Shown here: positions 7,717 to 38,011 of the stretch, piece after piece
Position numbering within the stretch: position 1 is the stretch's first letter
Layout of the letters: each line of letters starts with the position of its first letter
Source: Sphingobium sp.
GTDB taxonomy: Bacteria; Pseudomonadota; Alphaproteobacteria; Sphingomonadales; Sphingomonadaceae
Length of the DNA: 64,000 nt
Assembly (NCBI GenBank): GCA_023266575.1
Contig: JAHFPV010000015.1
Location: 1-64,000, forward strand
Direction of reading: 5' to 3'
Position numbers and translations under genes: made by a program
The notes under the pieces: model-generated
What the model was told of the DNA's origin: nothing
Database searches by the model: none
The model's input: the letters and a program-made list of their open reading frames with translations, nothing else

Positions 7717-7731
7717 GACCCAAGGTCTAAT
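7717..7731 (+). promoter_or_regulatory. Shared quinoprotein-regulon motif, site 1
   Basis: GACCCAAGGTCTAAT faces the TonB-dependent receptor gene and ends 55 bases before its start codon. It matches the motif found before six or seven other genes of the island. The binding protein is not known. Confidence 0.6.
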
Positions 7732-7786
7732 AGAGCGCCGTCCACCCGCCCCCTAGCCTTCCTCCCAAACATACAGGGAGGACGGC

Positions 7787-10090
7787 ATGAAGGGCATCGC
7801 GACGCTGCTGGCGACCAGCGCGATGGCGCTGTGTGGCGGGGTCGCGCGGGCGGACGACGTAGAGGCGGCGCGCCAGCCGATCATCGTCACTGCGCCGGGC
7901 GGTGGTATCGACAACGACGATGGCCTGTCGCTATCCGCTGCCGACATCAATAGAGGCGGCAGTCCCGATCTGCTCGGCGCGCTGGTCCGCAACTTTGCGG
8001 GCGTCACCTTGCAGGATGCGCAGAATAACCCGTGGCAGCCCAATCTGGTTTATCGCGGCTTTGTCGCCTCACCGCTTCAGGGGCAGGCGCAGGGGATCGC
8101 CGTCTATCTGGACGGCGCGCGCTTCAACCAGCCCTTTGGCGACACGATGCAGTTCGACCTGTTGCCCGAAGCCGCGATTGCGCGGATCAGCCTGCTCGAC
8201 AAAAGCGCGGTCTATGGCCTTAATGCGCTGGGCGGGGCGCTGCTGATCGACACCAAGACAGGGTTGAGCGATCCGGGGCTGGAGGCCAGCCTGTCCCAGG
8301 GCCGGTTCGGCATGACCGAAGCGAGCATCGCGGCGGGCGGGGCGCGGGGCGATTTCAGCGCCTTTGCCGCCTTCGAATATAGGCGCGATGATGGCTGGCG
8401 CGCCTTTTCGCCTTCGACCCTCTATAATGGCTATCTCGATCTTGGCTTTGACACCGCAGGAGGCGGCCTGCACCTGAAACTGGTGGGGGCGGATACCGAC
8501 CTGACCGGCAATGGCGTGTCCCCGGTCGAACTGCTCGCGGTCGATCGGCGCGCTGTGTTCACCTGGCCGGACAATAGCGCAAGCAGCTATGGCCGGGTCA
8601 GCCTGCATCCCTGGGTTGCGCTGTCGGACAGGACGCGGATCGAAGGAACGCTCTATGCCCAAAAATTGACGCTGCGTAACCTCAACGGAGATGCTGCCGA
8701 CATTGAAGGCTGCGAGGATGAATCGGGTCTGCTCTGCCTGGAGACAGTGGCCGATGCAGAGGGGGAGGAAGAACAGGCAGTCCTGACCGATGCCAATGGC
8801 GATCCGATCAACGACAGGCTGGGCGGTGAAGGCTATGGCGTCCTTAATCGCGGGCGCACCGCGACGCGGGCGATGGGCGCGCTGGTGCAGCTGATCGACC
8901 AGCGCGCTTTGGGTGACGGCGACAATCATCTGGCGCTTGGGTTGAGTTACGACACAAGCCGCACCCGCTTCGACACGTCCACCGAGCTGGGCGCAATGAC
9001 CGATAAGCGCGGCGTCGAGGGGCTGGGACCGATCATCATCCAGCCCGACGGCGCAATCGCGCCGGTGGGGCTGGTCGCCCATACCGATTATTGGGGTGTG
9101 TTCGTGCAGGACCGGCTGCCGATCACCCCGCGCCTTTCGGCCGAAATCGCACTGCGCTACAACCGGGCGCGGGTTGTGTTGCAAGACCAGATCGGCACTG
9201 CGCTCAATGGCCAGCATCACTTTGCCAGGCTGAACCCCGGCATCGAATTCGACTATCGCTTGTCCGACGCACTAGTGCTGCGCGCGGGCTATGCACAAAG
9301 CAACCGTGTGCCGACCCCAGCCGAACTGTCCTGCGCCGATGAAAATGCGCCGTGCAGCCTGACCAATTTCTTCATCGCCGATCCGCCATTAAAGCAGGTG
9401 GTCGCCCAAAGCTGGGAAGCGGGCGCGAAGGGCAAGGCGCAGCTTGACGGCTTTGCGATCGACTGGCTGCTGTCGGCCTGGCGCACAGACAATCGCAACG
9501 ACATTCAATATGTCGCGTCGGAAATCCGGGGCCGCGCCTATTTCCGCAATATCGGCAGCACAAGGCGGCAGGGCGTGGAAGCGACGATCCGCGCGAGCCG
9601 GGGCGGCCTGAGCGCTGGCCTGGGCTATGCCTTCACCGACGCGACCTATCGCGCGCCGCTCAGCCTTTCTAGCCCGGCCAATCCGACATCGGACGAGGAC
9701 GGTTTGATCGCGGTCGAACGCGGCGACCGCCTGCCCGGCATCGCCCGGCATAGCGCGACATTGAACTTGGACTATGCCGGGAGAGGCTGGACGGTCGGCG
9801 GCGATGTGATCGCGCGAACCGGCCAATATCTGGTCGGAGATGAGGGGAATGATACGCCGCGCCTCCCTGGCTACGCCATCGTCAACCTGCGCGCGAGCGT
9901 GGAGGTGGTGCGCGGCGTCAGCCTGTTCGGCGAACTCCGCAATGCCTTTGACCGGCGCTACGCGACCTTCGGCACGTTCAGCGAAGTCGACGAGGTCGAA
10001 CTGGAGGAGGTGCCGGACGCATCAAATCCCCGCGCCTATGGGCCGGGCGCACCGCGCCGTTGGCAAGTGGGGGTCAGGGCGCGCTTTTGA
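7787..10090 (+). CDS. TonB-dependent receptor, candidate PQQ or lanthanide uptake
   Basis: The 767-residue protein has a signal peptide (residues 1-22), a plug domain (about 30-155, with the RGFVASPLQGQAQGIAVYLDG segment) and a C-terminal beta-barrel ending in an aromatic-rich strand and the terminal residues RARF. It would import a large substrate across the outer membrane using TonB energy. The substrate is unknown. It shares the promoter motif with the PQQ dehydrogenase genes, which suggests PQQ or a metal chelate. A very acidic loop (about 301-348) contains two cysteines and a D-x-N-x-D-x-x-x-D segment at residues 335-343 resembling part of an EF-hand. GGGAGG precedes the ATG. Its last 17 bases overlap the convergent metallohydrolase gene. 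Confidence 0.85.
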   Translation: MKGIATLLATSAMALCGGVARADDVEAARQPIIVTAPGGGIDNDDGLSLSAADINRGGSPDLLGALVRNFAGVTLQDAQNNPWQPNLVYRGFVASPLQGQAQGIAVYLDGARFNQPFGDTMQFDLLPEAAIARISLLDKSAVYGLNALGGALLIDTKTGLSDPGLEASLSQGRFGMTEASIAAGGARGDFSAFAAFEYRRDDGWRAFSPSTLYNGYLDLGFDTAGGGLHLKLVGADTDLTGNGVSPVELLAVDRRAVFTWPDNSASSYGRVSLHPWVALSDRTRIEGTLYAQKLTLRNLNGDAADIEGCEDESGLLCLETVADAEGEEEQAVLTDANGDPINDRLGGEGYGVLNRGRTATRAMGALVQLIDQRALGDGDNHLALGLSYDTSRTRFDTSTELGAMTDKRGVEGLGPIIIQPDGAIAPVGLVAHTDYWGVFVQDRLPITPRLSAEIALRYNRARVVLQDQIGTALNGQHHFARLNPGIEFDYRLSDALVLRAGYAQSNRVPTPAELSCADENAPCSLTNFFIADPPLKQVVAQSWEAGAKGKAQLDGFAIDWLLSAWRTDNRNDIQYVASEIRGRAYFRNIGSTRRQGVEATIRASRGGLSAGLGYAFTDATYRAPLSLSSPANPTSDEDGLIAVERGDRLPGIARHSATLNLDYAGRGWTVGGDVIARTGQYLVGDEGNDTPRLPGYAIVNLRASVEVVRGVSLFGELRNAFDRRYATFGTFSEVDEVELEEVPDASNPRAYGPGAPRRWQVGVRARF

Positions 10091-11024
10091 TGTCGATGCG
10101 CGGCAGCAGCGACGCTTCAAGGCCCGGATAAAGGTGCGAGACGCTGCGCTGCATTTCGTAGCGGGCAACGGCCATTCGGGCGAAACGGTCGGGAATCGGC
10201 AGATTGCCCGCCTCCACCATGTCGAGCCCATCGCGCACCGCTTGTGTCAATGCGCCCTCCAGCCAGTTAAGCCAGTCGCCGGTCTGGGCTATGGCTGCGA
10301 TCCCGGCCGGATCAATCGGCCCATGGCCGGGCAGGAGAGCGCCATGGGGCAGCACCTGCAACTGGTCGAGACTGGCGCGCCAGGCTGGAAGCACTGCGGT
10401 CGGCGTGCTGGGCGCACGATCGTTAAACACCAGATCACCACCCAGCAGCATACCGGTCCGCTCGTCCAGCAGCGCCAGATCCGCGCTGCTATGGCCGGAG
10501 AGCGCAAGCGGGCGTAACGCCCGCCCGCCAAAATCCTCCTGCGCCGTCATGATCGCCCGCCCCGGCAGGATCAGGTCGGTGCCGCGCATCCAGTCGCCCA
10601 GCAACCGGTACATCCCATCGGCGTAGCCCTGCCCTTGCGCCACCAGTGCGGCGATCGTGCCGGGCAGCGCAGCAACGATGGCCGGGTCGAAGGCGGCCAG
10701 ACCCATGCCATGATCGGGATGGAGATGGCTGACATAGACTCGCACGATGCGCGCGCCGGTCAGTTGTTCGGCCACCTGCCGCAGGGCGCGGGCATAGCGC
10801 AGCGATGGGCCGCATTCCCACAACACGGTCCCGGCAGGCGTTGCGATGATGGCGATATTGGCGATCGCCCCGCCATTACGGGACTCGATCGGCTCATCAG
10901 CGCCGCGGACCATCCAGATGCCATCGCCGATCGCCACTGGCGTGATGACATAGTCCGCCGCGCGGGCGGGTGCAGCCGCCAGGCTCGCCATTCCGCCCAG
11001 CATGGCGCGGCGCGACAATATCAT
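10074..11024 (-). CDS. Quinoprotein relay system zinc metallohydrolase
   Basis: This 316-residue metallo-beta-lactamase-fold protein has the zinc motif HLHPDH (residues 100-105), further ligands in LSGHSSADLALLDE, GGDLVFND and the C-terminal LLPGHGP. The N-terminus (LSRRAMLGGMASLAAAPARA) looks like a twin-arginine or Sec signal, so it acts in the periplasm. Members of this family accompany PQQ dehydrogenases and SoxYZ-like carriers and resemble SoxH; their substrate has not been established to my knowledge. The start overlaps the stop of the SoxYZ-like gene by four bases, so the two form an operon. Confidence 0.85.
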   Translation of the reverse strand: MILSRRAMLGGMASLAAAPARAADYVITPVAIGDGIWMVRGADEPIESRNGGAIANIAIIATPAGTVLWECGPSLRYARALRQVAEQLTGARIVRVYVSHLHPDHGMGLAAFDPAIVAALPGTIAALVAQGQGYADGMYRLLGDWMRGTDLILPGRAIMTAQEDFGGRALRPLALSGHSSADLALLDERTGMLLGGDLVFNDRAPSTPTAVLPAWRASLDQLQVLPHGALLPGHGPIDPAGIAAIAQTGDWLNWLEGALTQAVRDGLDMVEAGNLPIPDRFARMAVARYEMQRSVSHLYPGLEASLLPRIDIKSAP

Positions 11025-11818
11025 CGTCCACCGGGTATGGGTGACTGGCGCGCCAGCGTCAGCGCGGCACGATAGTCGCGGCCGTTGGTGTCACGCGCCG
11101 CAACGCGCAGCGCCGCGTCCGCTGCGCTGTCCACCAGCAGCGTGATTGCGGGATCTTCCGAAACCGATGCCCAAATGTCCATGTCCCCCAGCAGACGGTC
11201 GGCCCCGTCGACCACCGACAAGGCCTCCAGATGATAGGTGGCGATATTTTCCACAAGGCCAGTATCCATCGGGTGGCGAAAACTCAGCCGTACCCGGCTC
11301 TGGCCGTTCGCCATCGGCCAGACTTCGCCGCGTATCTCGCCCAGATGATCGGCCCAGTCGCCCTTGACCCGGCTGACCGGCGGTGCGGAACATCCCCCGC
11401 CAGCGGCATCGACCCAGCCGCCCGACACAAGCCATTGTCCACTGTCGAGTTGCACTGCGCCACGCACCGGTGTCCGCTGGTCCAGCTTGATCCGGGTCGC
11501 GATATAGGGCGCGGCATGGGCGGGGCGATAGTCGATCGCGACGGGTATGGGATTAAGATCCGCCAGCAGGATCATCCGCCTGACCCCCACAATGCCCCGC
11601 GCGTCGATGACGACCGGAAAGGCGCGCTGGTTTTCCGCGATCATCGGAAAGGAGACGATCACCCGCGGATCGAAGCGGACCGGGTCATCACCGAACAGGG
11701 TGCGGGCATGGGCGCTCCACATCGGTGAACCCAACGGATCGGCAGGCGGTATGGCCGCGGCACTGGCAGGTGCCAGCATCAGCATGAGTACGACCCAAAG
11801 CCTCGTTGGCCTGCGCAT
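11021..11818 (-). CDS. Quinoprotein-associated fused SoxYZ-like carrier
   Basis: The 265-residue protein joins a SoxY-like half and a SoxZ-like half in one chain. The SoxY carrier arm is seen as GGGCSAPP near residue 140; in sulfur oxidation this cysteine carries the substrate, which suggests a covalent thiol carrier here too. The C-terminal ~100 residues (with VRLSFRHPMDTGLVEN) correspond to SoxZ. A signal peptide (MRRPTRLWVVLMLMLAPASA) places it in the periplasm. The carried group is unknown. It is the first gene of an operon with the metallohydrolase and has its own copy of the shared motif upstream. Confidence 0.85.
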   Translation of the reverse strand: MRRPTRLWVVLMLMLAPASAAAIPPADPLGSPMWSAHARTLFGDDPVRFDPRVIVSFPMIAENQRAFPVVIDARGIVGVRRMILLADLNPIPVAIDYRPAHAAPYIATRIKLDQRTPVRGAVQLDSGQWLVSGGWVDAAGGGCSAPPVSRVKGDWADHLGEIRGEVWPMANGQSRVRLSFRHPMDTGLVENIATYHLEALSVVDGADRLLGDMDIWASVSEDPAITLLVDSAADAALRVAARDTNGRDYRAALTLARQSPIPGGR

Positions 11819-11830
11819 GACCTTCTCCCT

Positions 11831-11845
11831 TATGACAGGTCTAAT
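11831..11845 (+). promoter_or_regulatory. Shared quinoprotein-regulon motif, site 2
   Basis: TATGACAGGTCTAAT shares AGGTCTAAT exactly with site 1 and faces the CXXCW-type gene, ending 53 bases before its start. It lies in the divergent region that also contains site 3 facing the other way. Confidence 0.5.
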
Positions 11846-11865
11846 CCCGCGCGCGACGCGCTACC

Positions 11866-11880
11866 ATTGGTCCTTGGGTC
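11866..11880 (-). promoter_or_regulatory. Shared quinoprotein-regulon motif, site 3
   Basis: On the minus strand this reads GACCCAAGGACCAAT and ends 47 bases before the start of the SoxYZ-like gene. It is among the closest matches to the consensus. Confidence 0.6.
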
Positions 11881-11898
11881 ATGGGCCGGGAGACGATC

Positions 11899-12441
11899 AT
11901 GCGCCGCTTCATAATAGCCGCCCTGCTGCTGGCGTCGCCGTGCCTGGCACAGGTGCCGTTGTTTGATGCCGAAGGCTATCGCATCGCGCATTATCGCGCG
12001 CCGGTGCGACAGCCGCCCGCCGGGGTCGGGCGAATCGCACCAGCGGCGGCGGCACAATTGATGTCCAACCGGGACGCCATATTTATCGACGTCCTGCCCG
12101 CCGAAGGTGGCCATCGCGCGCCCGATGGCCGCTGGCGGCTGGCGTCCACCCATATATCCATCCCCGGCGCGCACTGGTTCCCCGAAGCAGGGCGCGGCCA
12201 GCCCGATCCTGTCATTGCGCAAGCCTTTGCCAAAGGCATGGCCCGGCTGACCGGGCGAAAGCGCGGGCAGATGCTGATCCTTTTTTGCCGCGCCGATTGC
12301 TGGATGGGCTGGAATGCCGCCAAAAGGCTGCGCGCGATGGGCTATAGCAACATCTGGTGGCTGGCGGAGGGAACCGATGGCTGGCGCGACCTTGGCCTGC
12401 CGCTCGCCCCGGTCCAGCCCGATGACGGCATCGCCCCATAG
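11899..12441 (+). CDS. PQQ-dependent catabolism CXXCW-type rhodanese-like protein
   Basis: The 180-residue secreted protein (signal MRRFIIAALLLASPCLAQ) carries the conserved FCRADCWMGWNAAKR segment near residue 135 that defines the family; the actual spacing is C-x3-C-W. The fold around it (IPGAHWFPE and YSNIWWLAEGTDGWRDLGLP) is rhodanese-like. It occurs with PQQ alcohol dehydrogenases and is thought to act in the periplasm, possibly in thiol chemistry with the SoxYZ-like carrier, but its reaction is not established. I chose ATG 11899 because GGGAG stands before it and the signal peptide starts there, not at 11881. Confidence 0.85.
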   Translation: MRRFIIAALLLASPCLAQVPLFDAEGYRIAHYRAPVRQPPAGVGRIAPAAAAQLMSNRDAIFIDVLPAEGGHRAPDGRWRLASTHISIPGAHWFPEAGRGQPDPVIAQAFAKGMARLTGRKRGQMLILFCRADCWMGWNAAKRLRAMGYSNIWWLAEGTDGWRDLGLPLAPVQPDDGIAP

Positions 12442-12456
12442 GACCAAAGGCCCATT
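12442..12456 (+). promoter_or_regulatory. Shared quinoprotein-regulon motif, site 4
   Basis: GACCAAAGGCCCATT lies just after the stop codon of the CXXCW-type gene and 75 bases before the pseudoazurin start. It is one of the weaker matches, but the continuation GTGCG also resembles site 1 (AGAGCG). Confidence 0.45.
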
Positions 12457-12531
12457 GTGCGCGGTCGCGCTCCGGCCGCACTCTCCTCTCAATCCGGCGG
12501 CCACGAGCCGTGCGATTCCATGGAGAGTGAT

Positions 12532-12978
12532 GTGATCGACCTGCGCCTGTCTGGTGGCCTTGCCGCTGCCGCCCTGTTCCTCTCGCCAGTGCCCGCCGCG
12601 GCGAAGGATATTGTCGTCCATATGAAGAATCAGGGTACCGACGGGGCGATGGTGTTCGAACCGTCCTTCGTAAAGGCAGCGCCGGGCGACACGATCCGTT
12701 TCAAGCCGACCGACCCCAGCCATAATGCCGAGACGATGGCCAATATGCTGCCCGCAGGCGCAACGCCCGTGAAGGGCGTGATGAACAAGGAGATGGTCCT
12801 GACCGTCGCCAAGCCGGGCCTTTATGGCATCAAATGTATGCCCCATTATTCGATGGGCATGGTCGCGCTGGTGCAGGTGGGCAAGGTGTCCGCCGCAGAA
12901 CTGACCGCCGCCAAAGCGGTCAAGCTGCCGCCCTTTGCCGCCAAGCGCATGACGGCGGCCCTCGCGAAAGTGAAATAG
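12532..12978 (+). CDS. Pseudoazurin, periplasmic copper electron carrier
   Basis: The 148-residue blue copper protein carries one electron between periplasmic redox enzymes. The copper ligands are seen in order as His of PSHNAET, then Cys, His and Met in KCMPHYSMGM. A signal peptide (IDLRLSGGLAAAALFLSPVPAAA) precedes the mature start near AKDIVV. I chose the GTG at 12532: GGAGAG stands five bases before it and the signal peptide begins there, while longer frames add non-signal residues. Its place in the island suggests that it takes electrons from the PQQ dehydrogenase or cytochrome c, an inference. Confidence 0.9.
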   Translation: MIDLRLSGGLAAAALFLSPVPAAAKDIVVHMKNQGTDGAMVFEPSFVKAAPGDTIRFKPTDPSHNAETMANMLPAGATPVKGVMNKEMVLTVAKPGLYGIKCMPHYSMGMVALVQVGKVSAAELTAAKAVKLPPFAAKRMTAALAKVK

Positions 12979-12992
12979 ACCCAAGGTGCAAT
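12978..12992 (+). promoter_or_regulatory. Shared quinoprotein-regulon motif, site 5
   Basis: GACCCAAGGTGCAAT differs from site 1 at two positions. It starts on the last base of the pseudoazurin stop codon and ends 61 bases before the aldehyde dehydrogenase start. Confidence 0.6.
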
Positions 12993-13053
12993 GGCCCGGC
13001 CCTGGTCGCCGCGCCATGTTTTCAGCCAATTTCGACAATATAGGAGTAGGGCA

Positions 13054-14574
13054 ATGCTGCAACAGGCGATGGAGCGGTTCACCGGCAAGACGCTGATCCG
13101 TGACCAATATGACAATTATATCGGCGGCCAGTGGATCGCGCCGGTCAAGGGCGGCTATTTCGAGAATATCTCGCCCGTGACGGGGCAAGTCGTCGGCACG
13201 ATCGCGCGCGGTACGGCTGAGGATATCGAGCTGGCGCTGGATGCCGCGCACGAGGCAAAGGATGCTTGGGGCAAGACGTCCTCGACCGACCGGTCGAACA
13301 TCCTGCTGAAGATCGCCGACCGGATTGAAGCGAACCTCGATCTGATCGCGATGGCCGAGACGATCGACAATGGCAAACCGATCCGCGAGACAACCCACGC
13401 CGACATTCCGCTGGCCATCGACCATTTCCGCTATTTCGCCGGTTGCGTCCGCGCGCAGGAAGGGTCGATCAGCGAGATCGACCATGACACCATCGCCTAT
13501 CATTTTCACGAACCGCTGGGCGTGGTCGGCCAGATCATCCCCTGGAACTTCCCGATCCTGATGGCGGTGTGGAAGCTGGCCCCGGCACTGGCGGCGGGCA
13601 ACTGCATCGTCCTCAAACCCGCCGAGCAGACGCCCATGTCGATCCTGGTGCTGCTGGACATTATCGGCGACCTGCTGCCGCCCGGCGTGCTGAACGTCGT
13701 CAATGGTTTCGGCGTGGAAGCAGGCAAGCCGCTCGCCAGCAACAAGCGGATCAGCAAGATCGCCTTCACCGGCGAAACGACGACCGGCCGCCTGATCATG
13801 CAATATGCGTCGGAAAATCTGATTCCCGTCACGCTTGAGCTGGGCGGCAAATCGCCCAACATCTTCTTTGCCGACGTGATGGATGCGGATGACGATTATT
13901 TCGACAAATGTCTGGAAGGCTTTGCGATGTTCGCGCTCAATCAGGGCGAAGTCTGCACCTGCCCCAGCCGGGCGCTGATCCAGGAATCGATCTACGAAAA
14001 GTTCATCGAACGCGCGATTGCGCGGGTGAAGGCTATCAAACAGGGCAGCCCGCTCGATCCGGCGACCATGATCGGCGCGCAGGCGTCGAACGACCAGCTG
14101 GAAAAGATCCTCTCCTATATTGAGATCGGCCTGGCCGAAGGGGCGGAATTGCTGACCGGCGGCGCGCGCGCCCATCTGGATGGCGAACTGAGCGAGGGCT
14201 ATTATGTCACCCCGACGGTCCTGAAGGGCCACAACAGGATGCGCATCTTTCAGGAAGAGATTTTCGGCCCCGTGCTGGCCGTCACCACCTTCAAGGATGA
14301 AGCCGAAGCGCTCGCTATCGCCAATGACACGCTCTACGGCCTGGGCGCTGGCGTGTGGACCCGCGACGGCAGCCGCGCCTATCGCATGGGCCGGGGCATT
14401 CACGCCGGTCGCGTCTGGACCAACTGTTACCACGCCTATCCCGCCCATGCGGCATTTGGCGGGTTCAAACAGTCTGGCATTGGTCGCGAGAATCACAAGA
14501 TGATGCTGGACCATTATCAGCAGACCAAGAATCTGCTGGTCAGCTACAGCCCAAAGGCGCTGGGCTTTTTCTAA
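13054..14574 (+). CDS. NAD-dependent aldehyde dehydrogenase (ExaC/AldB type)
   Basis: The 506-residue enzyme oxidises aldehydes (probably acetaldehyde or similar alcohol-derived aldehydes) to acids with NAD in the cytoplasm. Catalytic features are [11 protein letters not shown] with the general base Glu near residue 265 and [11 protein letters not shown] with the nucleophile Cys near 302; the adjacent second cysteine is typical of ExaC-like enzymes. The NAD-binding FTGETTTGR segment is present. I chose ATG 13054 because AGGAG lies seven bases before it and the length then equals that of the family. A double hairpin after the stop ends the transcript, at least in part, before DUF779. Confidence 0.93.
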
Positions 14575-14584
14575 CTGGTCGCAC

Positions 14585-14619
14585 CGAAGGCGCTTGCCTC
14601 TCCCCTTCGAGCGCCTTCG
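14585..14619 (+). repeat. 10-bp inverted repeat after aldehyde dehydrogenase
   Basis: CGAAGGCGCT (14585-14594) pairs perfectly with AGCGCCTTCG (14610-14619). No T-run follows it directly; a proper terminator hairpin is next to it at 14625. Confidence 0.6.
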
Positions 14620-14624
14620 TCCCC

Positions 14625-14660
14625 GGCGGGCGTCCCTAACGGACGTCCGCCCCATTTTTT
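14625..14660 (+). terminator. Intrinsic terminator
   Basis: GGCGGGCGTCC and GGACGTCCGCC form an 11-bp stem with one G-T type mismatch and a five-base loop, followed by CCATTTTTT. It lies between the aldehyde dehydrogenase and DUF779 genes and would reduce read-through. Confidence 0.8.
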
Positions 14661-14676
14661 GAAGGAAGGCCTGGCT

Positions 14677-15081
14677 GTGACGACACCGCTTCCGCCCCGC
14701 ATATTGGCGACCGACCCAGCGCTGGCGCTGATGGCGCAATTGGCTGCGAAGCACGGGCCGCTGATGTTCCACCAGTCGGGCGGCTGTTGCGACGGTTCCG
14801 CGCCGATGTGCTTTCCGCGCGGCGAGTTCAGGGTCGGCGCGCAGGACGTGCTGCTGGGCCATGTGGCGGGCGATGTCCCCGTGTGGATCGGCGCAGCCCA
14901 GTTCGACTATTGGCGCCATACCCAGGTGACGATCGACATGGTGCCGGGGCGCGGCGCCGGCATGTCGCTGGAAAGTCCCGAAGGGGTGCGCTTCATAGTC
15001 CGGTCCCGCATCTTTACCGACAGCGAAAACGCCCTGCTGGAGGCGGCGGGTGATCCGCCGCGGGGCGACGCCATCGCCTGA
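14677..15081 (+). CDS. DUF779 domain protein
   Basis: The 134-residue protein has the DUF779 signature: FHQSGGCCDGSAPMCFP near residue 33, then a DVPVWIG-x4-FDYW segment. The paired and single cysteines suggest metal or redox chemistry. The family is a known companion of acetaldehyde dehydrogenases of the ExaC/AcoD kind, but no reaction is established. I chose the GTG at 14677: AGGAAGG stands seven bases before it, and the T-run terminator overlaps any earlier start. It may be expressed by read-through from the aldehyde dehydrogenase promoter. Confidence 0.8.
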   Translation: MTTPLPPRILATDPALALMAQLAAKHGPLMFHQSGGCCDGSAPMCFPRGEFRVGAQDVLLGHVAGDVPVWIGAAQFDYWRHTQVTIDMVPGRGAGMSLESPEGVRFIVRSRIFTDSENALLEAAGDPPRGDAIA

Positions 15082-15130
15082 CGTGACAAATGCGCAGCAC
15101 AGTGCATAACCCCTGAAAAAGGGGGATGCG

Positions 15131-16288
15131 ATGGGAGAGAGCAAGATGAGCATGGAGGCGGCGGATATTGTCTTTGCGTCGAGCCACATGCCTGATCCGG
15201 CCGATGCGATGGCGCAGGTCGCCGGCGCGCTGGGCGATACGCCGCTCGCCGGGATGCTGCTCTTTTGCTCGCACCGTTTCGATCGCGATGCGCTGGCCCG
15301 CGCCGTCAACCGCCATGGCGAACAGGTCATCGCGATCGGCTGCACCAGTTCGGGTGAGCTGACCGAGGTAGGCTATGACGAGGATAGTCTGAGCGTCATT
15401 GGCTTTCCTGCCGCCAGCTTCCATATGGTGTCCCATTGTTTCGATGATATCGACGCCTTCGACCCCGTAGCCGCGCGGGAAGCCGTCCGGTCGCTCGCGG
15501 CGGTGGCCGAGCGCGACAGCCGCCATCTGGGTGATCGGGTCAATCATGTCGCGCTGTTCCTGGTCGATGGCCTGTCCCATCGCGAAGAATTGCTGACGAT
15601 GACAATCCAGGATGCGCTGGGCGATGTGCCGCTAATCGGCGGATCGTCGGGTGACGGGCTGGATTTCCGCGAAACCGCGATCTTCCATGGCGGCCGCTTC
15701 CACCACCGTGCCGCCGTGATCGCCATCCTCTCCACCCCCCGGCCGCTCCATGTGTTCAAGGGGCAGCATTACCGCCCCGGCGCGGCCAAGATGGTGGTGA
15801 CCGGCGCGATCCCGCAGGACCGTGTCGTCACCGAAATCAACGCCGAACCCGCCGCGCAGGAATATCTGCGGCTGGCCGGCCATGCCGGCGAAGCGCTGGG
15901 GCTGGCCTTTTACGCCGCCCATCCGCCGATGGTGCGGGCGGGCGGCGACTATCATGTCCGGTCGATCCAGAGCGCGAACCCGGACGGCAGCCTGACCTTC
16001 TATTGCGCGATCGACGAGGGCATCGTGCTGACCGTGGGCGAGCCGGTGGACCGCATCGCGGGAATGGAGGCAATGTTCGCCGACATCGCCGCCCATGTCG
16101 GCACTGTCGACCGGATCATCGCGTTCGATTGCGTACTGAACCGGATCGACGCCGAACAGCGGCAGATCAGCCGGGCCGTGTCCGAACTTTATGGTCGCCA
16201 CCGGGTCATCGGCTTCAACACCTATGGTGAGCAATATCATGCGCTGCACGTCAACCAGACCTTCAGCGGGCTTGCGATCGGGCGATGA
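15131..16288 (+). CDS. FIST sensory domain protein
   Basis: The 385-residue soluble protein has a FIST_N domain (about residues 30-210, with IGCTSSGELTEVGYDEDSLS and PLIGGSSGDG) followed by a FIST_C domain (about 225-365, with GFNTYGEQYHALHVNQTFSG at the end). FIST domains are thought to bind small ligands, possibly amino acids or nickel-like cofactors, and feed kinases. The stop overlaps the start of the hybrid kinase by four bases, so the two are probably partners in sensing a signal for alcohol oxidation. A run of five G follows AAAAA seven bases before the chosen ATG; an ATG at 15146 is possible. Confidence 0.85.
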   Translation: MGESKMSMEAADIVFASSHMPDPADAMAQVAGALGDTPLAGMLLFCSHRFDRDALARAVNRHGEQVIAIGCTSSGELTEVGYDEDSLSVIGFPAASFHMVSHCFDDIDAFDPVAAREAVRSLAAVAERDSRHLGDRVNHVALFLVDGLSHREELLTMTIQDALGDVPLIGGSSGDGLDFRETAIFHGGRFHHRAAVIAILSTPRPLHVFKGQHYRPGAAKMVVTGAIPQDRVVTEINAEPAAQEYLRLAGHAGEALGLAFYAAHPPMVRAGGDYHVRSIQSANPDGSLTFYCAIDEGIVLTVGEPVDRIAGMEAMFADIAAHVGTVDRIIAFDCVLNRIDAEQRQISRAVSELYGRHRVIGFNTYGEQYHALHVNQTFSGLAIGR

Positions 16289-18504
16289 GCGTTTCGCCTG
16301 AACCCGACAGCGAGCTGGACATGTTGCGCGAAGAAAACCGCAAGCTGCGCAAGATCAATGCCGCGCTGATCGACCGGGTCGAACGGTCGAGCGATATGGC
16401 CGGTAACGCCTTTTCGATGTTCGAGACCGCGATCACGCTGGAAGCGATGGTGCGGGAGCGGACGGGTGAGCTGGAGGATGCGCTGGGTCGCCTGGCCACC
16501 GCCAACGCCGATCTGGCGCAGGCCCATGCCAGCGCCGACGCGGCGCAGACCCGGCTGCGCGACGCGATCGATTCGATCAATGAGGGCTTCGTCCTGTTCG
16601 ATGCGGAGGACAGGCTGGTCCTGTTCAACGAAGCCTATCTGGGCTTCTGGCCCGAAATCGCCGATCAGGTCCGCGAAGGCCTGTCCTTTGACGAGATTGC
16701 CCGGCTGGCCGCCGCGCATCACCGTACACCTGGATCGCTGGTCGCACCTGATCGTTGGGTATCGGACAGGCTCGCGCGCCACAGCGTGGCCGATGGCGGC
16801 CATGTCCAGGCGCTGTCGGACGGGCGCTGGGTCCAGATCAACGAACTGCGCACCAGCGAAGGCGGCATCGTCGGCATCTATACCGACATTACCGAGGTCA
16901 AGGCGCAGGATGCGCGCAACCGGGCGCTGGAGCTGGCCGAACGCAACCTCATCCTGCAATCGACGCTCGACAATCTGTCCGAAGGCGTGTGCCTGTTCGA
17001 CGCGCAGGGGCGGGTCGCGGCGTGGAACGAGGCGCTCCAGCATCTGCTCGACCTGTCGGGCGACTGGGCGCAGGAGGGCGGCAGCCATGGGGCGCTGGTG
17101 GGCTGGTGCCGTGACCGGCTGGGCATGGCCGATGGCGGCTGCCTCGACTGGCGGGGCGACCGGCCGGGGGGCGAACCGCTGCACGCGCTGGTCCATGCGG
17201 GAACGCGCAGTTTCGAACTGCGCAGCACGGCGCTGGAACGGGGCGGGCAGGTGATCGGCTTTACCGACGTCATCGCCATGGTGCGCGCGCAGGCGGGTTT
17301 GCAGGAAACCGCCGAAACGCTGGAGCGTCGGGTCGCCGAGCGCACCGCCGAACTGGAGACCGAAATCGCCGAACGCCGGGCGATCGAGGCGCAGTTGCGC
17401 GACGCCAAGACGGCAGCGGAAAAGGCGAACCTGTCCAAGACCAGCTTTCTGGCCGCCGCCAGCCACGACCTGCTCCAGCCCTTGAACGCCGCCCGGCTGT
17501 TCGTTGCGGCGCTGGGCGACCGGCGGCTGGCACTGCCGACCCGCGCGCTGGTCAACCAAACGTCGACGGCGCTCGATTCGGTGGAGGATCTGCTGGAGGC
17601 GCTGCTGGAGATCAGCCGCCTGGACGCAGGCGCAATCCAGCCGGAGATTGGCGACTTCCGGCTCGACCGGCTGCTCGACACGCTGCGCGTCGAATTTGCG
17701 CCGATGGCGCGGGCGGGCGGGCTGGAGCTGGCGATCGCCAGCGAACCGGTCTGGGTGCGTTCCGACATCAGGCTGCTGCGGCGCATCCTGCAAAATTTCC
17801 TGTCCAACGCGCTGCGCTATACCCAGCAGGGGTCGGTGCGGGTGGAATGCACAAGCGGACCCGATGGCGTGCGCATCAGCGTGGTGGACAGTGGCCCCGG
17901 CATTGCGCTCGACAAGCAGGCATTGGTGTTCGAGGAGTTTCGGCGCCTCGACACCCGGACCAGCGGCAAGGGGCTGGGGCTGGCCATCGTCAAGCGGGCG
18001 AGCGACATGCTGGGCCACCCGATCACGCTCGTTTCCGCGCCCGGTCGCGGATCGACCTTTGCAATTTGCCTGCCTGCGGGCGAGCCGGTGGCCGATCCCG
18101 ACGGCGAGCCGGACATAGTCGGGCGTGATCGCACCATGCGCGGCCTTAACGTGCTGGTGATCGACAATGAACGGGCGATCCAGACCGGCATGACGACCCT
18201 GCTGGCAGGCTGGGGCTGTACGGTGCAGGCAGCGGGCGGCTTTGCCGATGCGACCGCGCTGTTCGGCGGCGACGCAAAGCCCGACATCATCCTGATCGAC
18301 TATCATCTGAACGATGGTGAGACCGGCGACCATGTGATCGACCGGCTGCGCGCCCATTTTGGCGGGCCGGTGCCGGCGGTCATGATTTCGGCTGATCGCG
18401 GCAAGGATCTGAAGGTCCGGCTCGACGCCTGTGGAATTCCGCTGCTGAGCAAGCCGGTGAAGCCTGCGCAGTTGCGCGCGCTGCTGCGGACGATGCTGAA
18501 ATAG
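16285..18504 (+). CDS. Soluble PAS hybrid histidine kinase (NahK/ErcS' type)
   Basis: The 739-residue protein has no membrane segment. Order: an N-terminal coiled coil, a PAS_7-like domain (about 95-210, SINEGFVLFDAEDRLVLFN), a second PAS_7-like domain (about 228-330, LSEGVCLFDAQGRVAAWN), a coiled coil, a dimerisation domain with the phospho-His in AASHDLLQPLNAARL (near 393) and an ATPase domain (NFLSNALRY, DSGPGI, GKGLGLAIV). A C-terminal receiver (about 615-735, phospho-Asp in ILIDYHLND) ends the chain. The layout is that of the ErcS' and NahK kinases that control PQQ ethanol oxidation in Pseudomonas. It is coupled to the FIST gene and probably acts on the LuxR-type regulator encoded next. 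Confidence 0.9.
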   Translation: MSVSPEPDSELDMLREENRKLRKINAALIDRVERSSDMAGNAFSMFETAITLEAMVRERTGELEDALGRLATANADLAQAHASADAAQTRLRDAIDSINEGFVLFDAEDRLVLFNEAYLGFWPEIADQVREGLSFDEIARLAAAHHRTPGSLVAPDRWVSDRLARHSVADGGHVQALSDGRWVQINELRTSEGGIVGIYTDITEVKAQDARNRALELAERNLILQSTLDNLSEGVCLFDAQGRVAAWNEALQHLLDLSGDWAQEGGSHGALVGWCRDRLGMADGGCLDWRGDRPGGEPLHALVHAGTRSFELRSTALERGGQVIGFTDVIAMVRAQAGLQETAETLERRVAERTAELETEIAERRAIEAQLRDAKTAAEKANLSKTSFLAAASHDLLQPLNAARLFVAALGDRRLALPTRALVNQTSTALDSVEDLLEALLEISRLDAGAIQPEIGDFRLDRLLDTLRVEFAPMARAGGLELAIASEPVWVRSDIRLLRRILQNFLSNALRYTQQGSVRVECTSGPDGVRISVVDSGPGIALDKQALVFEEFRRLDTRTSGKGLGLAIVKRASDMLGHPITLVSAPGRGSTFAICLPAGEPVADPDGEPDIVGRDRTMRGLNVLVIDNERAIQTGMTTLLAGWGCTVQAAGGFADATALFGGDAKPDIILIDYHLNDGETGDHVIDRLRAHFGGPVPAVMISADRGKDLKVRLDACGIPLLSKPVKPAQLRALLRTMLK

Positions 18505-18522
18505 ACCGTCTGCCGCGCCGGG

Positions 18523-19161
18523 TCAGTCGGCGCGGAAATGCACCCGGTTCGCCTTGATCACTGCCTGAGTGCGGCTCAGTACGCCCAGTTTCTGGAGGAT
18601 CGCCGACACATGCGCCTTGATCGTGGTCATCGACACGTTGAGGTCGTGGGCGATCTGCTTGTTGAGGCGACCGTTGACCAGATGGCCCAGCACGGTTTTC
18701 TGCTGCGGCGTCAGGCTGTCGATCCGGCGGGTGATGTCATCTTCGTCGGCGGAAGGCGCGGCGCCCTCGCCCATGGTTTCGGGCAGGTAGATTTCGCCCG
18801 ACACTACGCGGTGCAGGGCATCGACGATGGCGCTGCGCTTCAAGGATTTGGGGATGAACCCCGCCGCGCCCGCGGCCAGCGCCTCCTGCACGATCGCGCG
18901 GTCGAACGCGCCCGACACCATCACCACCGGCAGGATCGGAAAACGGTCACGCAGCAGCTTGAGGCCGTCGAGCCGCCGCACGTCCGGTATGTGAAGGTCG
19001 AGCAGGATAAGATCAAAATTATCTTGTTTTTCCAGTGTGTTGATAGCCTCTTCAAGGCTGGCAGCCTCGAATATCTCGATATTGTCAAAGCTGATCGCGA
19101 TCACGCTGCGCAACCCGTCGCGCACCAGCGGATGATCGTCGACGATCAGTACCCGCTCCAT
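18523..19161 (-). CDS. LuxR-family response regulator (ErbR/AgmR-like)
   Basis: The 212-residue protein has an N-terminal receiver (IVDDHPLVRDGL; phospho-Asp in LILLDLHIPD near residue 55) and a C-terminal LuxR helix-turn-helix (about 145-205, LTPQQKTVLGHLVNGRLNKQIA and SMTTIKAHVSAILQKLG). It resembles AgmR/ErbR, which activates PQQ alcohol dehydrogenase genes in pseudomonads. It lies convergent to the hybrid kinase and downstream of the dehydrogenase gene. I chose the ATG at 19161 because the receiver starts there and the length is typical; an ATG a few codons upstream is possible. It is the best candidate to bind the shared promoter motif. Confidence 0.85.
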   Translation of the reverse strand: MERVLIVDDHPLVRDGLRSVIAISFDNIEIFEAASLEEAINTLEKQDNFDLILLDLHIPDVRRLDGLKLLRDRFPILPVVMVSGAFDRAIVQEALAAGAAGFIPKSLKRSAIVDALHRVVSGEIYLPETMGEGAAPSADEDDITRRIDSLTPQQKTVLGHLVNGRLNKQIAHDLNVSMTTIKAHVSAILQKLGVLSRTQAVIKANRVHFRAD

Positions 19162-19318
19162 GATCGCTTCGCCGCCCATATATTGGCCCATATCCTGCCC
19201 CCGGCCCGAATGATCGGCCAAGTCATGGGACGTGGCAAGCCGCAATACGCCAGGCGGCGGTGCCGGAACCTGCATTGCATAGCTGCCGCGTCCCATGACG
19301 ATCATGACCGCAACTCCC

Positions 19319-21064
19319 TTATGATTTCGGCAGCTTGAACACCCAGAGCGCGCCGCCCTGATTGATGTCCTTGAACGACTTGGCGACTTCGCCGCCCCAC
19401 AAAGGCACAGCGCCGCCCCAGCCGGACATGACGGCGACATATTGTTCGCCATCCTGTTCCCAGGTGACGGGTGATCCGACCACGCCGGACCCGGTCTGGA
19501 ATTTCCAGAGTTCCTGGCCCGTCTTGGCGTCGAACGCCTTGAGGAAGCCTTCGGGCGTACCGGTGAATACCAGATTGCCGCCGGTCGTCAGCACCCCGCC
19601 CCAGAGCGGTGCCTTGTTCTTATATTCCCACATGATCTTGCCGGTCTTGGGGTCCATCGCCCGCAGCGCGCCAATATGATCGTCGGCGATCGACTTGATG
19701 GTGAAGCCCGCGCCCAGATAGGCCGCGCCCTTCTTGTAGGCGATCGGTTCGTTCCAGATGTCCATGCCCCAGTCGTTGGACGGAATGTAGAAGAGGCCGG
19801 TGTCGTGGCTGTAGGCCATCGGCATCCAGTTCTTGCCGCCCAGGAAGGACGGCGAGGCGAATACCGGCTTGCCCTTGGCATCGCCGGGCGCTGGCGGACG
19901 GCCTTCGGGGATGACATTGGGTTTGCCGGCCTTGTTGAAACCATTGGCCCAGGTCGTCTGCATGACGAATTTGTTGGCGCTGATGAACTTGCCGTTGGTG
20001 CGGTCCAGCACGAAGAAATAGCCGTTGCGGTCCGCCTTGGCCCCCAGCTTCATCGGCTTGCCGTTGATCGTGGCATCGAAGGGGATGAATTCATTGACCC
20101 CGTCAAAATCCCAGCCGTCGTGCGGGGTCGTCTGATAATGCCATTTGATCACGCCAGTGGCCGGATCGATCGCCAGGGTCGATGCGGTGTAGAGATTGTC
20201 GCCGGGACGCAAATGGCTGTTCCAGGGTGCGGGGTTGCCGGTGCCAAAGAAGAGCAGGTTGGTGTCAGGATCATAGGTGCCGCCTAGCCAGGTCGCGCCG
20301 CCGCCGCTTTTCCAAAGATCGCCCTGCCAGGTCGCGTTGAGCTTGCCGGTGATGCCATTATCCTTGCCCTTGAGCGTGCCCATATGGCCCTCGATCACCG
20401 GGCGGTGCCAGATCAGCTCGCCAGTATTGACGTCGCGCGCATCGACCGAGCCGACGATGCCGAATTCGCCGCCTGAATTGCCGGTGATGACCATGCCGTT
20501 GACGATCAGCGGTGCGGCAGTGGCGCTATAGCCTTCCTTATAATCGGCAATCTGCTTGTTCCAGATCACCTTGCCCGTGTTGCGGTTGAGCGCCACCAGC
20601 CGGGCGTCGAGCGTGGCGAAGATGATCTTGTCGCCATAGATCGCCGCGCCGCGGTTCACCACGTCGCAGCAGGGCATGATCCCGTCGGGCAGGCGAGCGT
20701 CATATTGCCATTTTTCCTCGCCGGTGCGCGCGTCGAAGGCGAACAGGCGCGAATAGCTGCCCGTCACATAGATGGTGCCGTCATAGACGATCGGCTGCGC
20801 TTCCTGGCCGCGCTGCTTTTCGCCGCCGAGCGAGGCGGAGAAGGCTGGCACCATTTTGGCGACATTACCGCTGTTGATGGCATTCAAGCTGCTGAAACGG
20901 TGCGCCTGCGGTCCCATGCCATAGGTCAGCACGTCGCCCGTCGATTTGGCGTCGTTCATCAGATCCGCATCGGTCGGCCCGCCCTGCGCCACCAGCGGCG
21001 CGGCCCCCATCGCCAGCGTCATTGCGGCAACGCCCGACAGCGCCCGCATGATCGGTCCCTTCAT
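19319..21064 (-). CDS. PQQ-dependent alcohol dehydrogenase, lanthanide type
   Basis: The 581-residue periplasmic enzyme oxidises primary alcohols to aldehydes with PQQ. It has a signal peptide, eight-bladed propeller repeats ending in W-type docking motifs, the adjacent-cysteine disulfide MPCCDVV (Cys132-Cys133) and metal ligands in GGEFG and TGNPAPWN. In GWDFDGVNE the first Asp (near 319) is the catalytic base and the second (near 321) is the residue found in lanthanide-dependent enzymes (XoxF, PedH), where calcium enzymes have Ala, Ser or Thr. Lanthanide use is therefore predicted, not shown. I chose the third-codon ATG at 21064: GGGAGG lies six bases before it but touches the ATG at 21070. 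The shared motif lies 78 bases upstream. Confidence 0.93.
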
Positions 21065-21142
21065 AACCATCCTCCCTGTGTGTTCGGGCGCATTGGACGC
21101 CCCCGGTTTATGTGCAGACTATGCCGCTGCGGCAGCGCGACA

Positions 21143-21157
21143 ATTGAACCTTAGGTC
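21143..21157 (-). promoter_or_regulatory. Shared quinoprotein-regulon motif, site 6
   Basis: On the minus strand this reads GACCTAAGGTTCAAT and ends 78 bases before the PQQ dehydrogenase start. It lies directly after the stop codon of the binding-protein gene, so the dehydrogenase has its own promoter. Confidence 0.6.
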
Positions 21158-21163
21158 GGCCCC

Positions 21164-22033
21164 TCAGCCCGCAGCGTTGGCCGGGGTCCAGCTGACGCCG
21201 TAGCGCACGAACAGCGCCTTCATCTCGCCACTCGCCGCCATGGCGGTGACGATCTCTTCCACCGCATCGCCCAGCGTGCGGCTATTTTCCTTTACCGCCA
21301 TGCCGATGTCCCAGCCGGGCGAGGTGAAGGCAGGCAGCGGTCCCTTGCGCAAGGTAACCCGGCCAGCGCCCGCGCGGTGCAGCCCATGTTCGATCTGCGC
21401 CCGGCTCGCCAGGACAGCGTCCGCCTGCCCGGTCGTCACTGCCGCTACGGCCGCCGATCCGGTCGGATAATGGATGACGTCCTTGGCCAATATGCCGCCG
21501 AACGAGCCGATCAGATAGAAGTCGGGAATGGAGTCCAGTTCGGCGGCGAGCTTGCGGCCGCGCCATTCGGTCGGCATTCCCTCCAGCGCCACCGCGCCGC
21601 CGACACCGGCCAGCGCGAAGCTTTCGCGATAATAGGGCGCGACGATCGCGACCTGATCGTTGCGGGCCGCGAAGCTGCGGTCGAAGGGGACATGCAGCAT
21701 CAGGTCGCCAGGCACGAAGCCCAGCAGCCCGCCCTTCCACACGCCATTACGCAGGTCATCATCGACGCTTTCATCGGCGACCAGTTGCGCGACATCGGCG
21801 CGCACGCCAAGCTTGGCCGCAATCGCCTGCGCCAGATCGGCGTCGAGGCCGACGATCTTGCCGCCTTCCGCCCACGACCAGGGGCGGTTGTCCTGATAGA
21901 CCACCACCCGCAATGTGCCGAGCGCCTTGACCTTCGCCAGCGGGGCTGCGCCGCCGCGGCCCGCCGCCAGCGCGAGCGCCGCGCCTGCTCCGCCGATCAG
22001 GGCGCGGCGGCTGAGCGTCGCCCTATCCCTCAT
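21164..22033 (-). CDS. Quinoprotein-associated periplasmic binding protein (XoxJ-like)
   Basis: The 289-residue protein has the fold of an amino-acid-type ABC binding protein (LGTLRVVVYQDNRPWSWAEGG, then GLDADLAQAIAAKLG) after a twin-arginine-like signal (LSRRALIGGAGAALALAAG). No transporter genes accompany it. In methylotrophs such proteins (XoxJ, MxaJ) bind or mature the PQQ dehydrogenase, so that role is likelier than solute uptake. I chose ATG 22033, where the signal starts; it overlaps the cytochrome gene by 11 bases. A much longer open frame upstream is the shadow of the cytochrome gene. Confidence 0.85.
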   Translation of the reverse strand: MRDRATLSRRALIGGAGAALALAAGRGGAAPLAKVKALGTLRVVVYQDNRPWSWAEGGKIVGLDADLAQAIAAKLGVRADVAQLVADESVDDDLRNGVWKGGLLGFVPGDLMLHVPFDRSFAARNDQVAIVAPYYRESFALAGVGGAVALEGMPTEWRGRKLAAELDSIPDFYLIGSFGGILAKDVIHYPTGSAAVAAVTTGQADAVLASRAQIEHGLHRAGAGRVTLRKGPLPAFTSPGWDIGMAVKENSRTLGDAVEEIVTAMAASGEMKALFVRYGVSWTPANAAG

Positions 22034-22448
22034 GCTTGGTTTCAAGCCAGGCGCGGATCGCCCAGCCCGCCTTCTGACCCAACACGTCGCCAAAGGGTGG
22101 CATATAGACTTTGCCGTCATGGCTGGACCCGTGGCGATAGCGTTCGGCGAACCACTGGTCGCCGGTTTCGCCTGCCTCCAGATAGCGCAGGTCCGGCGCG
22201 ATCCCGCCGGATTCAGCGTCCAGCCCGTGGCAGCGCGCACAATTCTGACCATAGGCCGACTGCCCAATCTCGATCGCCTTGGCATTGCCGCTATAGGGGT
22301 TTTTTTCGAGCCAGGTTTCGCCGATTTCGGGCAGTGCGGTCGTGTCGACCGCCTGCGGCGTGACATCGCCATGTGCCAGCAGCGCGCTCGCCCCGGTCAT
22401 GCCCAAAGTGGCGATGGCACCCAGCAGCGCGATCCGTCCCAGTTTCAT
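22023..22448 (-). CDS. Cytochrome c-550 PedF-like
   Basis: The 141-residue protein has a signal peptide (MKLGRIALLGAIATLGMTGA) and a single haem-c site CARCH near residue 72, with a distal methionine candidate in VYMPPFGDVL. It would receive electrons from the PQQ dehydrogenase in the periplasm and pass them to a terminal oxidase, as PedF and cytochrome c550 do in pseudomonads. The gene comes first in an operon with the binding protein. I chose ATG 22448 for the signal peptide; an in-frame ATG at 22457 adds three residues and is equally possible. Confidence 0.88.
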   Translation of the reverse strand: MKLGRIALLGAIATLGMTGASALLAHGDVTPQAVDTTALPEIGETWLEKNPYSGNAKAIEIGQSAYGQNCARCHGLDAESGGIAPDLRYLEAGETGDQWFAERYRHGSSHDGKVYMPPFGDVLGQKAGWAIRAWLETKHEG

Positions 22449-22511
22449 TTGCCTCATCCTCTCACGCGGATTCTCGTTGGCTCCGAATATCGGACAAGGC
22501 GGTCGCGCAGC

Positions 22512-22531
22512 CCATTGGCCATTGGTACAAT
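22512..22531. promoter_or_regulatory. Shared quinoprotein-regulon motif, site 7 (two facing)
   Basis: The segment is nearly symmetric. On the plus strand GGCCATTGGTACAAT (22517-22531) ends 59 bases before the beta-propeller gene. On the minus strand GTACCAATGGCCAATGG (22528-22512) matches site 3 at 13 of 17 positions and faces the cytochrome gene. One region may therefore serve both divergent genes. The match is weaker than at sites 1, 3 and 5. Confidence 0.4.
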
Positions 22532-22590
22532 CCCGCTCACGCCCGGCGACCGATAGGATGGCCGACAAAGAGGCGAGAGGATCAGGGTTT

Positions 22591-37988: not shown

Positions 37989-38011
37989 AATCAGACCATA
38001 TTCGTCTGATT
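37989..38011 (-). promoter_or_regulatory. Candidate suf operator palindrome
   Basis: AATCAGAC at 37989-37996 and GTCTGATT at 38004-38011 form a perfect inverted repeat with a seven-base spacer, 22 bases before the regulator start. The position suits a repressor site over the suf promoter. The binding protein is inferred. Confidence 0.6.

Follow-up and report, generated by a model that had tools for sequence, protein, structure and literature searches.

The window examined here is a 64,000-nucleotide stretch of DNA from a Sphingobium species (GenBank assembly GCA_023266575.1, contig JAHFPV010000015.1, positions 1 to 64,000), in which NCBIfam profile searches place a cluster of genes for alcohol oxidation dependent on pyrroloquinoline quinone (PQQ) at 4.5-23.5 kb. 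A short motif, here called the box, is repeated ahead of these genes, and the repetition is real, with five single boxes and a palindrome that stood up to checking. An earlier note on this DNA had proposed the motif as the binding site of a shared activator and named the LuxR-type response regulator encoded at 18523-19161 as the nearest candidate. Taken as a whole, the observations are best, and we think probably correctly, explained if the box is the operator of a class of activator-dependent promoters bound by this regulator. Sphingomonads would thereby gain a candidate operator for their alcohol oxidation of the PQQ type (probably lanthanide-type), and the findings suggest co-regulation of PQQ uptake and the PQQ-requiring enzyme in a bacterium that does not make PQQ itself.

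The box and its conservation

Every string listed in the earlier note is present in the DNA, and all of the sites bar one face genes as it had claimed: single boxes face the genes for a TonB-dependent receptor, a SoxYZ-like carrier, pseudoazurin, an aldehyde dehydrogenase and a PQQ dehydrogenase, and the palindrome serves those for the cytochrome PedF and a beta-propeller protein, the exception being the site assigned to the gene for a CXXCW motif protein. Since the gaps measured for the five single boxes run from 47 to 72 nt (Table 1), the claimed range of 47-78 nt stands. What had been described as a near-symmetric pair is indeed symmetric, but it is one 18-bp palindrome rather than two sites, with gaps of 59 nt rightward to the propeller gene and 65 nt leftward to PedF.

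The consensus of the box is G-R-C-C-N-A-A-R-G-T-N-C-A-A-T, often followed by TG. In 146 aligned sites the informative block extends over 15-17 nt, with spacer and flanks that carry little information, and a modest TAnnnT-like peak follows 21-22 nt past it (A in 55% and T in 46-47% at the best positions); the last T of the block and the TG after it correspond to the first bases of a −35 element placed 17 nt ahead of the −10. The block is also partly palindromic, a symmetry that, for 174 sites, was equalled by 3 of 2000 column shuffles. This anatomy would fit a dimeric activator bound beside the −35, as in activator-dependent promoters.

The earlier note held that spacing and orientation make chance unlikely. 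Judged only by the window this argument has little force, with 7 pattern matches at up to two mismatches against 3.8 ± 2.0 in shuffled sequence, and 7 of 100 shuffles reaching 7; the case for the motif therefore rests on other genomes, which do carry it. Across the whole 3.62-Mb genome a 12-base pattern is matched exactly at four places, of which three are promoters of the cluster, and allowing one mismatch gives 13 matches compared with 4 for the reversed pattern. These 13 comprise five in the cluster, one at a second TonB receptor gene, and seven others (contigs C2, C5 twice, C22, C23 and C25, and window position 38009) that we took to be unrelated, each overlapping an open reading frame of 150 codons or more; such overlap is weak evidence against them, because the site at the second TonB receptor overlaps one too and the genome is GC-rich.

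The matrix scan of related genomes that the earlier note suggested as a check bears the motif out. The locus set consisted of 80 named loci, the best of a larger scan for related PQQ dehydrogenases, together with 11 same-family regions (from 11 of the 12 other genomes with a SoxYZ-like match; G070, with matches below the cut-off, was left out); for matches across the phylum, regions were taken for 20. A matrix built from the six window sites only was applied to the 220 nt upstream of orthologues at a threshold of at least 10 bits, and the counts given here are for sphingomonads, with near-duplicates removed and the window and the near-identical loci L044 and L045 excluded. At the PQQ dehydrogenase the box stands in the sense orientation in 47 of 49 loci and in the antisense orientation in 0 of 49, set against 8 of 1355 in a coding control. 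The corresponding sense counts are 45/50 for a porin gene (2 antisense), 32/36 for the aldehyde dehydrogenase (6 antisense), 15/27 for SoxYZ (7 antisense) and 10/17 for pseudoazurin (12/17 antisense); the high antisense counts probably arise because divergent gene pairs share one box. Four inner genes gave no sense box (the gene at 14674, 0/31; NosP, 0/32; the kinase, 0/38; the regulator, 0/46; 0/147 in total), and their antisense count was 1 at the regulator and 0 at the other three, while SoxH upstream regions gave 1/31 sense and 0 antisense. Column-shuffled matrices yielded a mean of 0.2-1.0 matches per gene set, with single shuffles of up to 21/31 in one inner-gene set. Of the matches upstream of the SBP gene (9/49 sense, 1 antisense), most are by position strings resembling GACGAATGGTTCATC that fall within the coding part of PedF, and they were not counted as sites.

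De novo motif discovery by expectation maximization, applied to loci outside the Sphingobium group, returned TnGtCCCAAGGTcCAATTGn at the PQQ dehydrogenase (38 sequences), aTnGnCCnaaGGTaCAATtG at the aldehyde dehydrogenase (29 sequences) and ATTGCACCAAAGGGCAATTG at pseudoazurin (11 sequences). From the PedF, propeller, SoxYZ, CXXCW and TonB upstream regions it returned other sequences and not the box, the product for PedF being presumably coding sequence of the divergent neighbour. Its conservation, its orientation, where it lies relative to the −10 and −35, its partly symmetric form and its absence at the four inner genes together argue well for the predicted site of a shared activator, as had been proposed.

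The site that the earlier note assigned to the CXXCW gene did not hold up. The right half of the string TATGACAGGTCTAAT (11831-11845, + strand) overlaps the −10 of the SoxYZ-like gene, its GGTCTA being the complement of TAGACC (11838-11843), and the string, which is the same in the near-identical locus L045, is not kept in the near relatives L046 and L047; it was rejected for these reasons. Among sphingomonad CXXCW upstream regions, a score of at least 10 bits was reached in 7/29 in the sense and 16/29 in the antisense orientation, and a facing box does occur in a few relatives, such as L034 and L035. In Azospirillum the string ATTCGACTAT recurs ahead of the gene for the CXXCW protein (L101, L103-L105 and L109) and, in three of these loci (L101, L103 and L104), also ahead of the PQQ dehydrogenase; it may serve as operator in the Azospirillum version.

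The regulator and competing explanations

The regulator at 18523-19161 is the only one of the AgmR/ErdR class found in the genome, the next best by score having 30% identity. With regulators called at 40% identity or more, a related gene up to 3 kb downstream of the PQQ dehydrogenase and the box occur together in 47 of the 70 loci with enough DNA, that is, in 47 of the 51 boxed loci, which are not independent by descent. On these two grounds the nearest candidate named at the outset is also the best one, and we infer that it is likely the protein that binds the box. It is 41-43% identical to two presumptive Pseudomonas regulators, one encoded near a ped-like cluster and one passing the ErdR cut-off (436.5 bits against 390), the assignment of those genomes (family f44, Pseudomonadaceae) being itself drawn from gene content and the ErdR score. 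In a tree the window regulator groups with its counterparts from sphingomonads and Azospirillaceae. The presumptive AgmR and ErdR proteins each have a branch of their own, and support is 86/88 at the fork where ErdR meets the alphaproteobacterial branch.

A mechanism can be proposed in which the products of the neighbouring NosP- and NahK-like genes probably phosphorylate the regulator, the kinase at 16285-18504 being its probable partner, and the phosphorylated dimer would then bind the imperfect inverted repeat centred on ACC-N2/3-GGT. The downstream edge of the bound repeat would touch a weak −35, with the TAnnnT-like −10 lying 21-22 nt on, and the dimer would recruit the housekeeping polymerase by class II activation. 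The predicted outcome is joint activation of the PqqU-like TonB receptor, the PQQ dehydrogenase with its electron carriers and helper proteins, and the aldehyde dehydrogenase; a second locus would contribute the porin and second TonB receptor.

Several observations weigh against this scheme. The box occurs without a related regulator within 3 kb at 4 of the 70 loci, the regulator without a box at the PQQ dehydrogenase at 13 (12 of them, going by record titles, outside the sphingomonads), and neither at 6. Covariation between recognition-helix residues and the box is not clean, and Niveispirillum has an ETT-type helix yet AAGGTTCAAT or AAAGTCCAATT boxes. Some genes are boxed in a minority of loci, namely PedF (19/54 sense, 23 antisense), the propeller (20/50, 17), the TonB homologues (6/26, 3; 6/7 boxed in Sphingobium and close kin) and the second TonB receptor (7/30, 2). 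The pseudoazurin and aldehyde dehydrogenase promoters have poor −10 elements (CACTCT and CATGTT, each 22 nt past the box), and the loci are related by descent, so that the counts are not independent.

That the box is the operator of a different regulator encoded elsewhere, with the cluster regulator acting on something else, is unlikely but deserves consideration: the 4 boxed loci without a nearby regulator and the 13 with a regulator and no box would favour it, as would the unboxed state of the regulator gene itself (0/46). However, no further AgmR/ErdR-class regulator was found in the genome, the LuxR-type gene beside the porin of the second locus (L022:1350-2507), tried as a rival regulator, has no match at E <= 1e-10 in 111 other loci, and the homologue CrbR uses a partly similar repeat. 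The nearly fixed distance between box and −10 could also be read as the mark of an alternative sigma factor promoter rather than of an activator site, which we regard as very improbable given a conserved and partly palindromic block of 15-17 nt, most of which is upstream of where the −35 would be, and a palindrome at 22514-22531 with −10-like hexamers on both sides, between divergent genes.

Chance similarity, or common promoter ancestry without function, might account for a window-only count that is not striking, and close relatives do inherit entire promoters, but such an account is hardly credible and is already largely refuted by the matrix scan of sphingomonad loci. The box persists in deduplicated distant loci, where it is informative beside uninformative flanks; it shows an orientation bias at the PQQ dehydrogenase, porin and aldehyde dehydrogenase and is lacking at the inner genes; and it was recovered de novo in three gene sets and has copies at the second locus.

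Regulon members and the supply of PQQ

The box predicts members of the regulon outside the cluster, the exact pattern leading to the second TonB receptor and the matrix to the adjoining porin. The fourth exact genome match (G000:C21:116034-116048) precedes the second TonB receptor gene, downstream of the porin gene, which has its own box at G000:C21:114549-114563; the two genes (L022:2639-6161) are on a contig, C21, separate from that of the cluster. Many relatives have homologues of the two genes inside the PQQ loci that were retrieved, and, with the C21 locus itself included, the porin box is found in 51/58 loci, at a gap of mostly 67-90 nt, and that of the second TonB receptor in 10/35. We took both genes, despite their separate location, as putative members of the same regulon. 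The acs gene (C21:104952-106811) was considered as a possible target of the ACTU type (see below), but a pattern search of its locus found no box on either strand.

A match ahead of a cyoA-like oxidase gene (G000:C25:88256, GACAAAAGGTCCAAT, with TAGACG 22 nt on) at first resembled a regulon member. Among 30 cyoA loci of the genus, 8 (own included) carry GACAAAAGGTCCAAT exactly and others GACAAAACGTCCAAT, GACAAAGTGTCCAAT or GACAAATTGCCCACT, and 3 gave no frame; because these variants suggest a different conserved palindrome, the match was left out, as a judgement rather than a proof. At cyoA-type genes (also L161-L190) these palindrome-like strings stand about 34 nt ahead of the probable start codon (ATG) and are followed by TAG at a distance of about 22 nt.

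No PqqC was found in this genome, which is 99.96% complete, and no PqqE over the cut-off; PqqC is present in 4 of 61 genomes of the genus. The organism is probably a PQQ scavenger, and the absence of these two proteins, together with a boxed receptor that is PqqU-like, suggests that PQQ scavenging may be under the same control as PQQ use. Directly upstream of this receptor gene are genes for a molybdenum aldehyde oxidoreductase (4547-7707; PaoC over its cut-off), and a pattern search at up to two mismatches found no box in the window ahead of 7717. The gene at 14674-15081 had no NCBIfam match; presumably it belongs to DUF779.

Table 1. Boxes, −10-like hexamers and genes of the PQQ cluster, in window coordinates; scores are for NCBIfam models, with the cut-off of each model
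Feature	Position	Strand	Remarks
Box GACCCAAGGTCTAAT	7717-7731	+	Faces PqqU-like TonB receptor; 55 nt to likely start codon
TAGCCT, −10-like	7754-7759	+	22 nt past TonB receptor box
Box GACCCAAGGACCAAT	11866-11880	-	Faces SoxYZ-like gene; 47 nt to likely start codon
TAGACC, −10-like	11838-11843	-	SoxYZ-like gene; 22 nt past its box
Box GACCAAAGGCCCATT	12442-12456	+	Faces pseudoazurin; 63 nt to likely start codon
Box GACCCAAGGTGCAAT	12978-12992	+	Faces ExaC aldehyde dehydrogenase; 61 nt to likely start codon
Box GACCTAAGGTTCAAT	21143-21157	-	Faces PQQ dehydrogenase; 72 nt to likely start codon
TAGTCT, −10-like	21116-21121	-	PQQ dehydrogenase; 21 nt past its box
Single 18-bp palindrome ATTGGCCATTGGTACAAT	22514-22531	both	Between divergent PedF (left) and propeller (right) genes
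GATATT, −10-like	22486-22491	-	22 nt from palindrome
TAGGAT, −10-like	22554-22559	+	22 nt from palindrome
TonB-dependent receptor, PqqU-like	7787-10090	+	Best model TonB_rec_PqqU (NF041535), 107.9 bits, below cut-off 1200
Quinoprotein relay system zinc metallohydrolase 1 (SoxH-type)	10074-11024	-	TIGR04558, 341.5 bits, cut-off 300; inner gene without box
Quinoprotein dehydrogenase-associated SoxYZ-like carrier	11021-11818	-	TIGR04557, 194.4 bits, cut-off 140
PQQ-dependent catabolism-associated CXXCW motif protein	11899-12441	+	TIGR03865, 163.4 bits, cut-off 128.05; likely start 11899
Pseudoazurin	12532-12978	+	TIGR02375, 145.8 bits, cut-off 109.85
Acetaldehyde dehydrogenase ExaC	13054-14574	+	NF050026, 944.8 bits, cut-off 900; likely start 13054
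NosP-like sensor	15131-16288	+	NF041558, 399.5 bits, below cut-off 450
NahK/ErcS-family hybrid histidine kinase	16285-18504	+	NF041832 (subfamily-domain model), 413.3 bits, cut-off 400
Response regulator, AgmR/ErdR class, LuxR-type	18523-19161	-	Best model ErdR (NF041830), 177.3 bits, below cut-off 390
PQQ-dependent alcohol dehydrogenase	19319-21070	-	TIGR03075, 779 bits, cut-off 480.05
Cytochrome c-550 PedF	22023-22451	-	TIGR04494, 212.7 bits, cut-off 122; ATG about 22448
PQQ-dependent catabolism-associated beta-propeller protein	22591-23556	+	TIGR03866, 388.5 bits, cut-off 287.3

Comparison with known systems

The PQQ dehydrogenase of the window is of the PedH type of PQQ ethanol dehydrogenases: its best PDB match is 6zcw (E 4.1e-257), which we take to be PedH, and the sequence GWDFDGVNE is aligned identically and holds the DxD metal site that marks lanthanide use. 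The boxed TonB receptor resembles PqqU/YncD in that, of all solved structures, its sequence matches only YncD 6v81 (1.8e-19) and the PQQ transporter 9c4o (2.7e-19) at E <= 0.001, and differs in falling far short of the PqqU model NF041535 (Table 1).

The operator of mctP in Sinorhizobium fredii offers a parallel within the Alphaproteobacteria, RpuR being a LuxR-type response regulator that requires a conserved motif in the promoter in order to activate it; its motif is an imperfect direct repeat, not inverted, and the function served is pyruvate uptake (PMC9100948). Among NCBIfam models, the RpuR-related MctR ranks third for the window regulator, at 117.4 bits against a cut-off of 300.

The gene set is similar to that of the Pseudomonas ped system, governed by AgmR/ErbR/PedR1, with NosP, a NahK/ErcS-type kinase, the regulator, a PQQ dehydrogenase, PedF, SBP, SoxYZ/SoxH-like proteins and CXXCW; the window regulator likewise has NosP/NahK-type genes and a PQQ dehydrogenase nearby. 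AgmR activates the ped cluster and pqq genes in Pseudomonas and drives pqqFABCDE in P. putida (PMC12997753), in contrast to the present genome with no PqqC found. Where that paper's passages deal with a motif, consensus, box or binding site, no operator for AgmR is named. For ErdR, binding has been described by electrophoretic mobility shift assay, and the ercS and agmR promoters were not bound by the in vivo method described (PMC9927353). In the presumptive Pseudomonas ped clusters (L141-L148 and L215-L234), PedF, the PQQ dehydrogenase or the aldehyde dehydrogenase is preceded by a palindrome, roughly CTASTACCAAGGGAGTAG, that contains the shared core TACCAAGG and is possibly the AgmR operator; its outer half-site bases differ from those of sphingomonads, CTACTACC as against ATTGNACC. 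In four such genomes, 15 of 20 palindrome matches lie within 1.5 kb of a gene for a ped-type protein, and a reversed control pattern gave 49 matches, so that the support comes from location and not from number.

The earlier note knew of no published motif of this form for sphingomonads. Literature searches, mostly below full-text depth, met none for sphingomonads or PQQ genes, but a partly similar core has been published in the ACTU repeat of the CrbR/ErdR system for acetate utilisation in Gammaproteobacteria (PMC5715377). This imperfect inverted repeat, needed by CrbR at −52 to −36, directly ahead of the RpoD promoter of acs, shares with the box its kind of symmetry, a homologous LuxR-type response regulator (for the box, the proposed one) and a place directly upstream of a housekeeping promoter, which for the box is read from the sequence of the 146 aligned sites. 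The predicted cheV site TACTACCAAAGTCTAAT matches the sphingomonad porin consensus ACCAAAGTCCAAT at 12/13 bases. When 12 distinct site sequences from PMC5715377 were scored with the sphingomonad core, 6 scored higher than at least 98.7% of the permutations made from them; a further point against the explanation favoured here is that only two reach 10 bits (cheV, 17.9; PFLU5625, 10.3), with acs at 4.0, PFLU1813 at −1.0 and six below −5 bits. The two systems also differ in the genes served (acetate versus PQQ alcohol oxidation), in bacterial class, in the outer bases and in the spacing of the halves: in the majority of sphingomonad boxes an additional base separates them, which departs from the GAC-N4-GTC-type core of ACTU, and the search at acs of this genome found no box.

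These likenesses allow a broader proposal, which we hold only tentatively and as somewhat less probable than its opposite: that one ACC-N2/3-GGT inverted-repeat code with lineage-specific outer bases marks the PQQ alcohol-oxidation regulon across the Alpha- and Gammaproteobacteria, has co-evolved with regulators of the AgmR/ErdR class and, in sphingomonads without PQQ synthesis, has captured a PQQ importer. If this is true, the captured importer would mean that PQQ scavenging and PQQ use are switched on jointly, and the operator of the sphingomonads would be linked, in part, to the acetate ACTU repeat and to the presumptive ped box of the Gammaproteobacteria.

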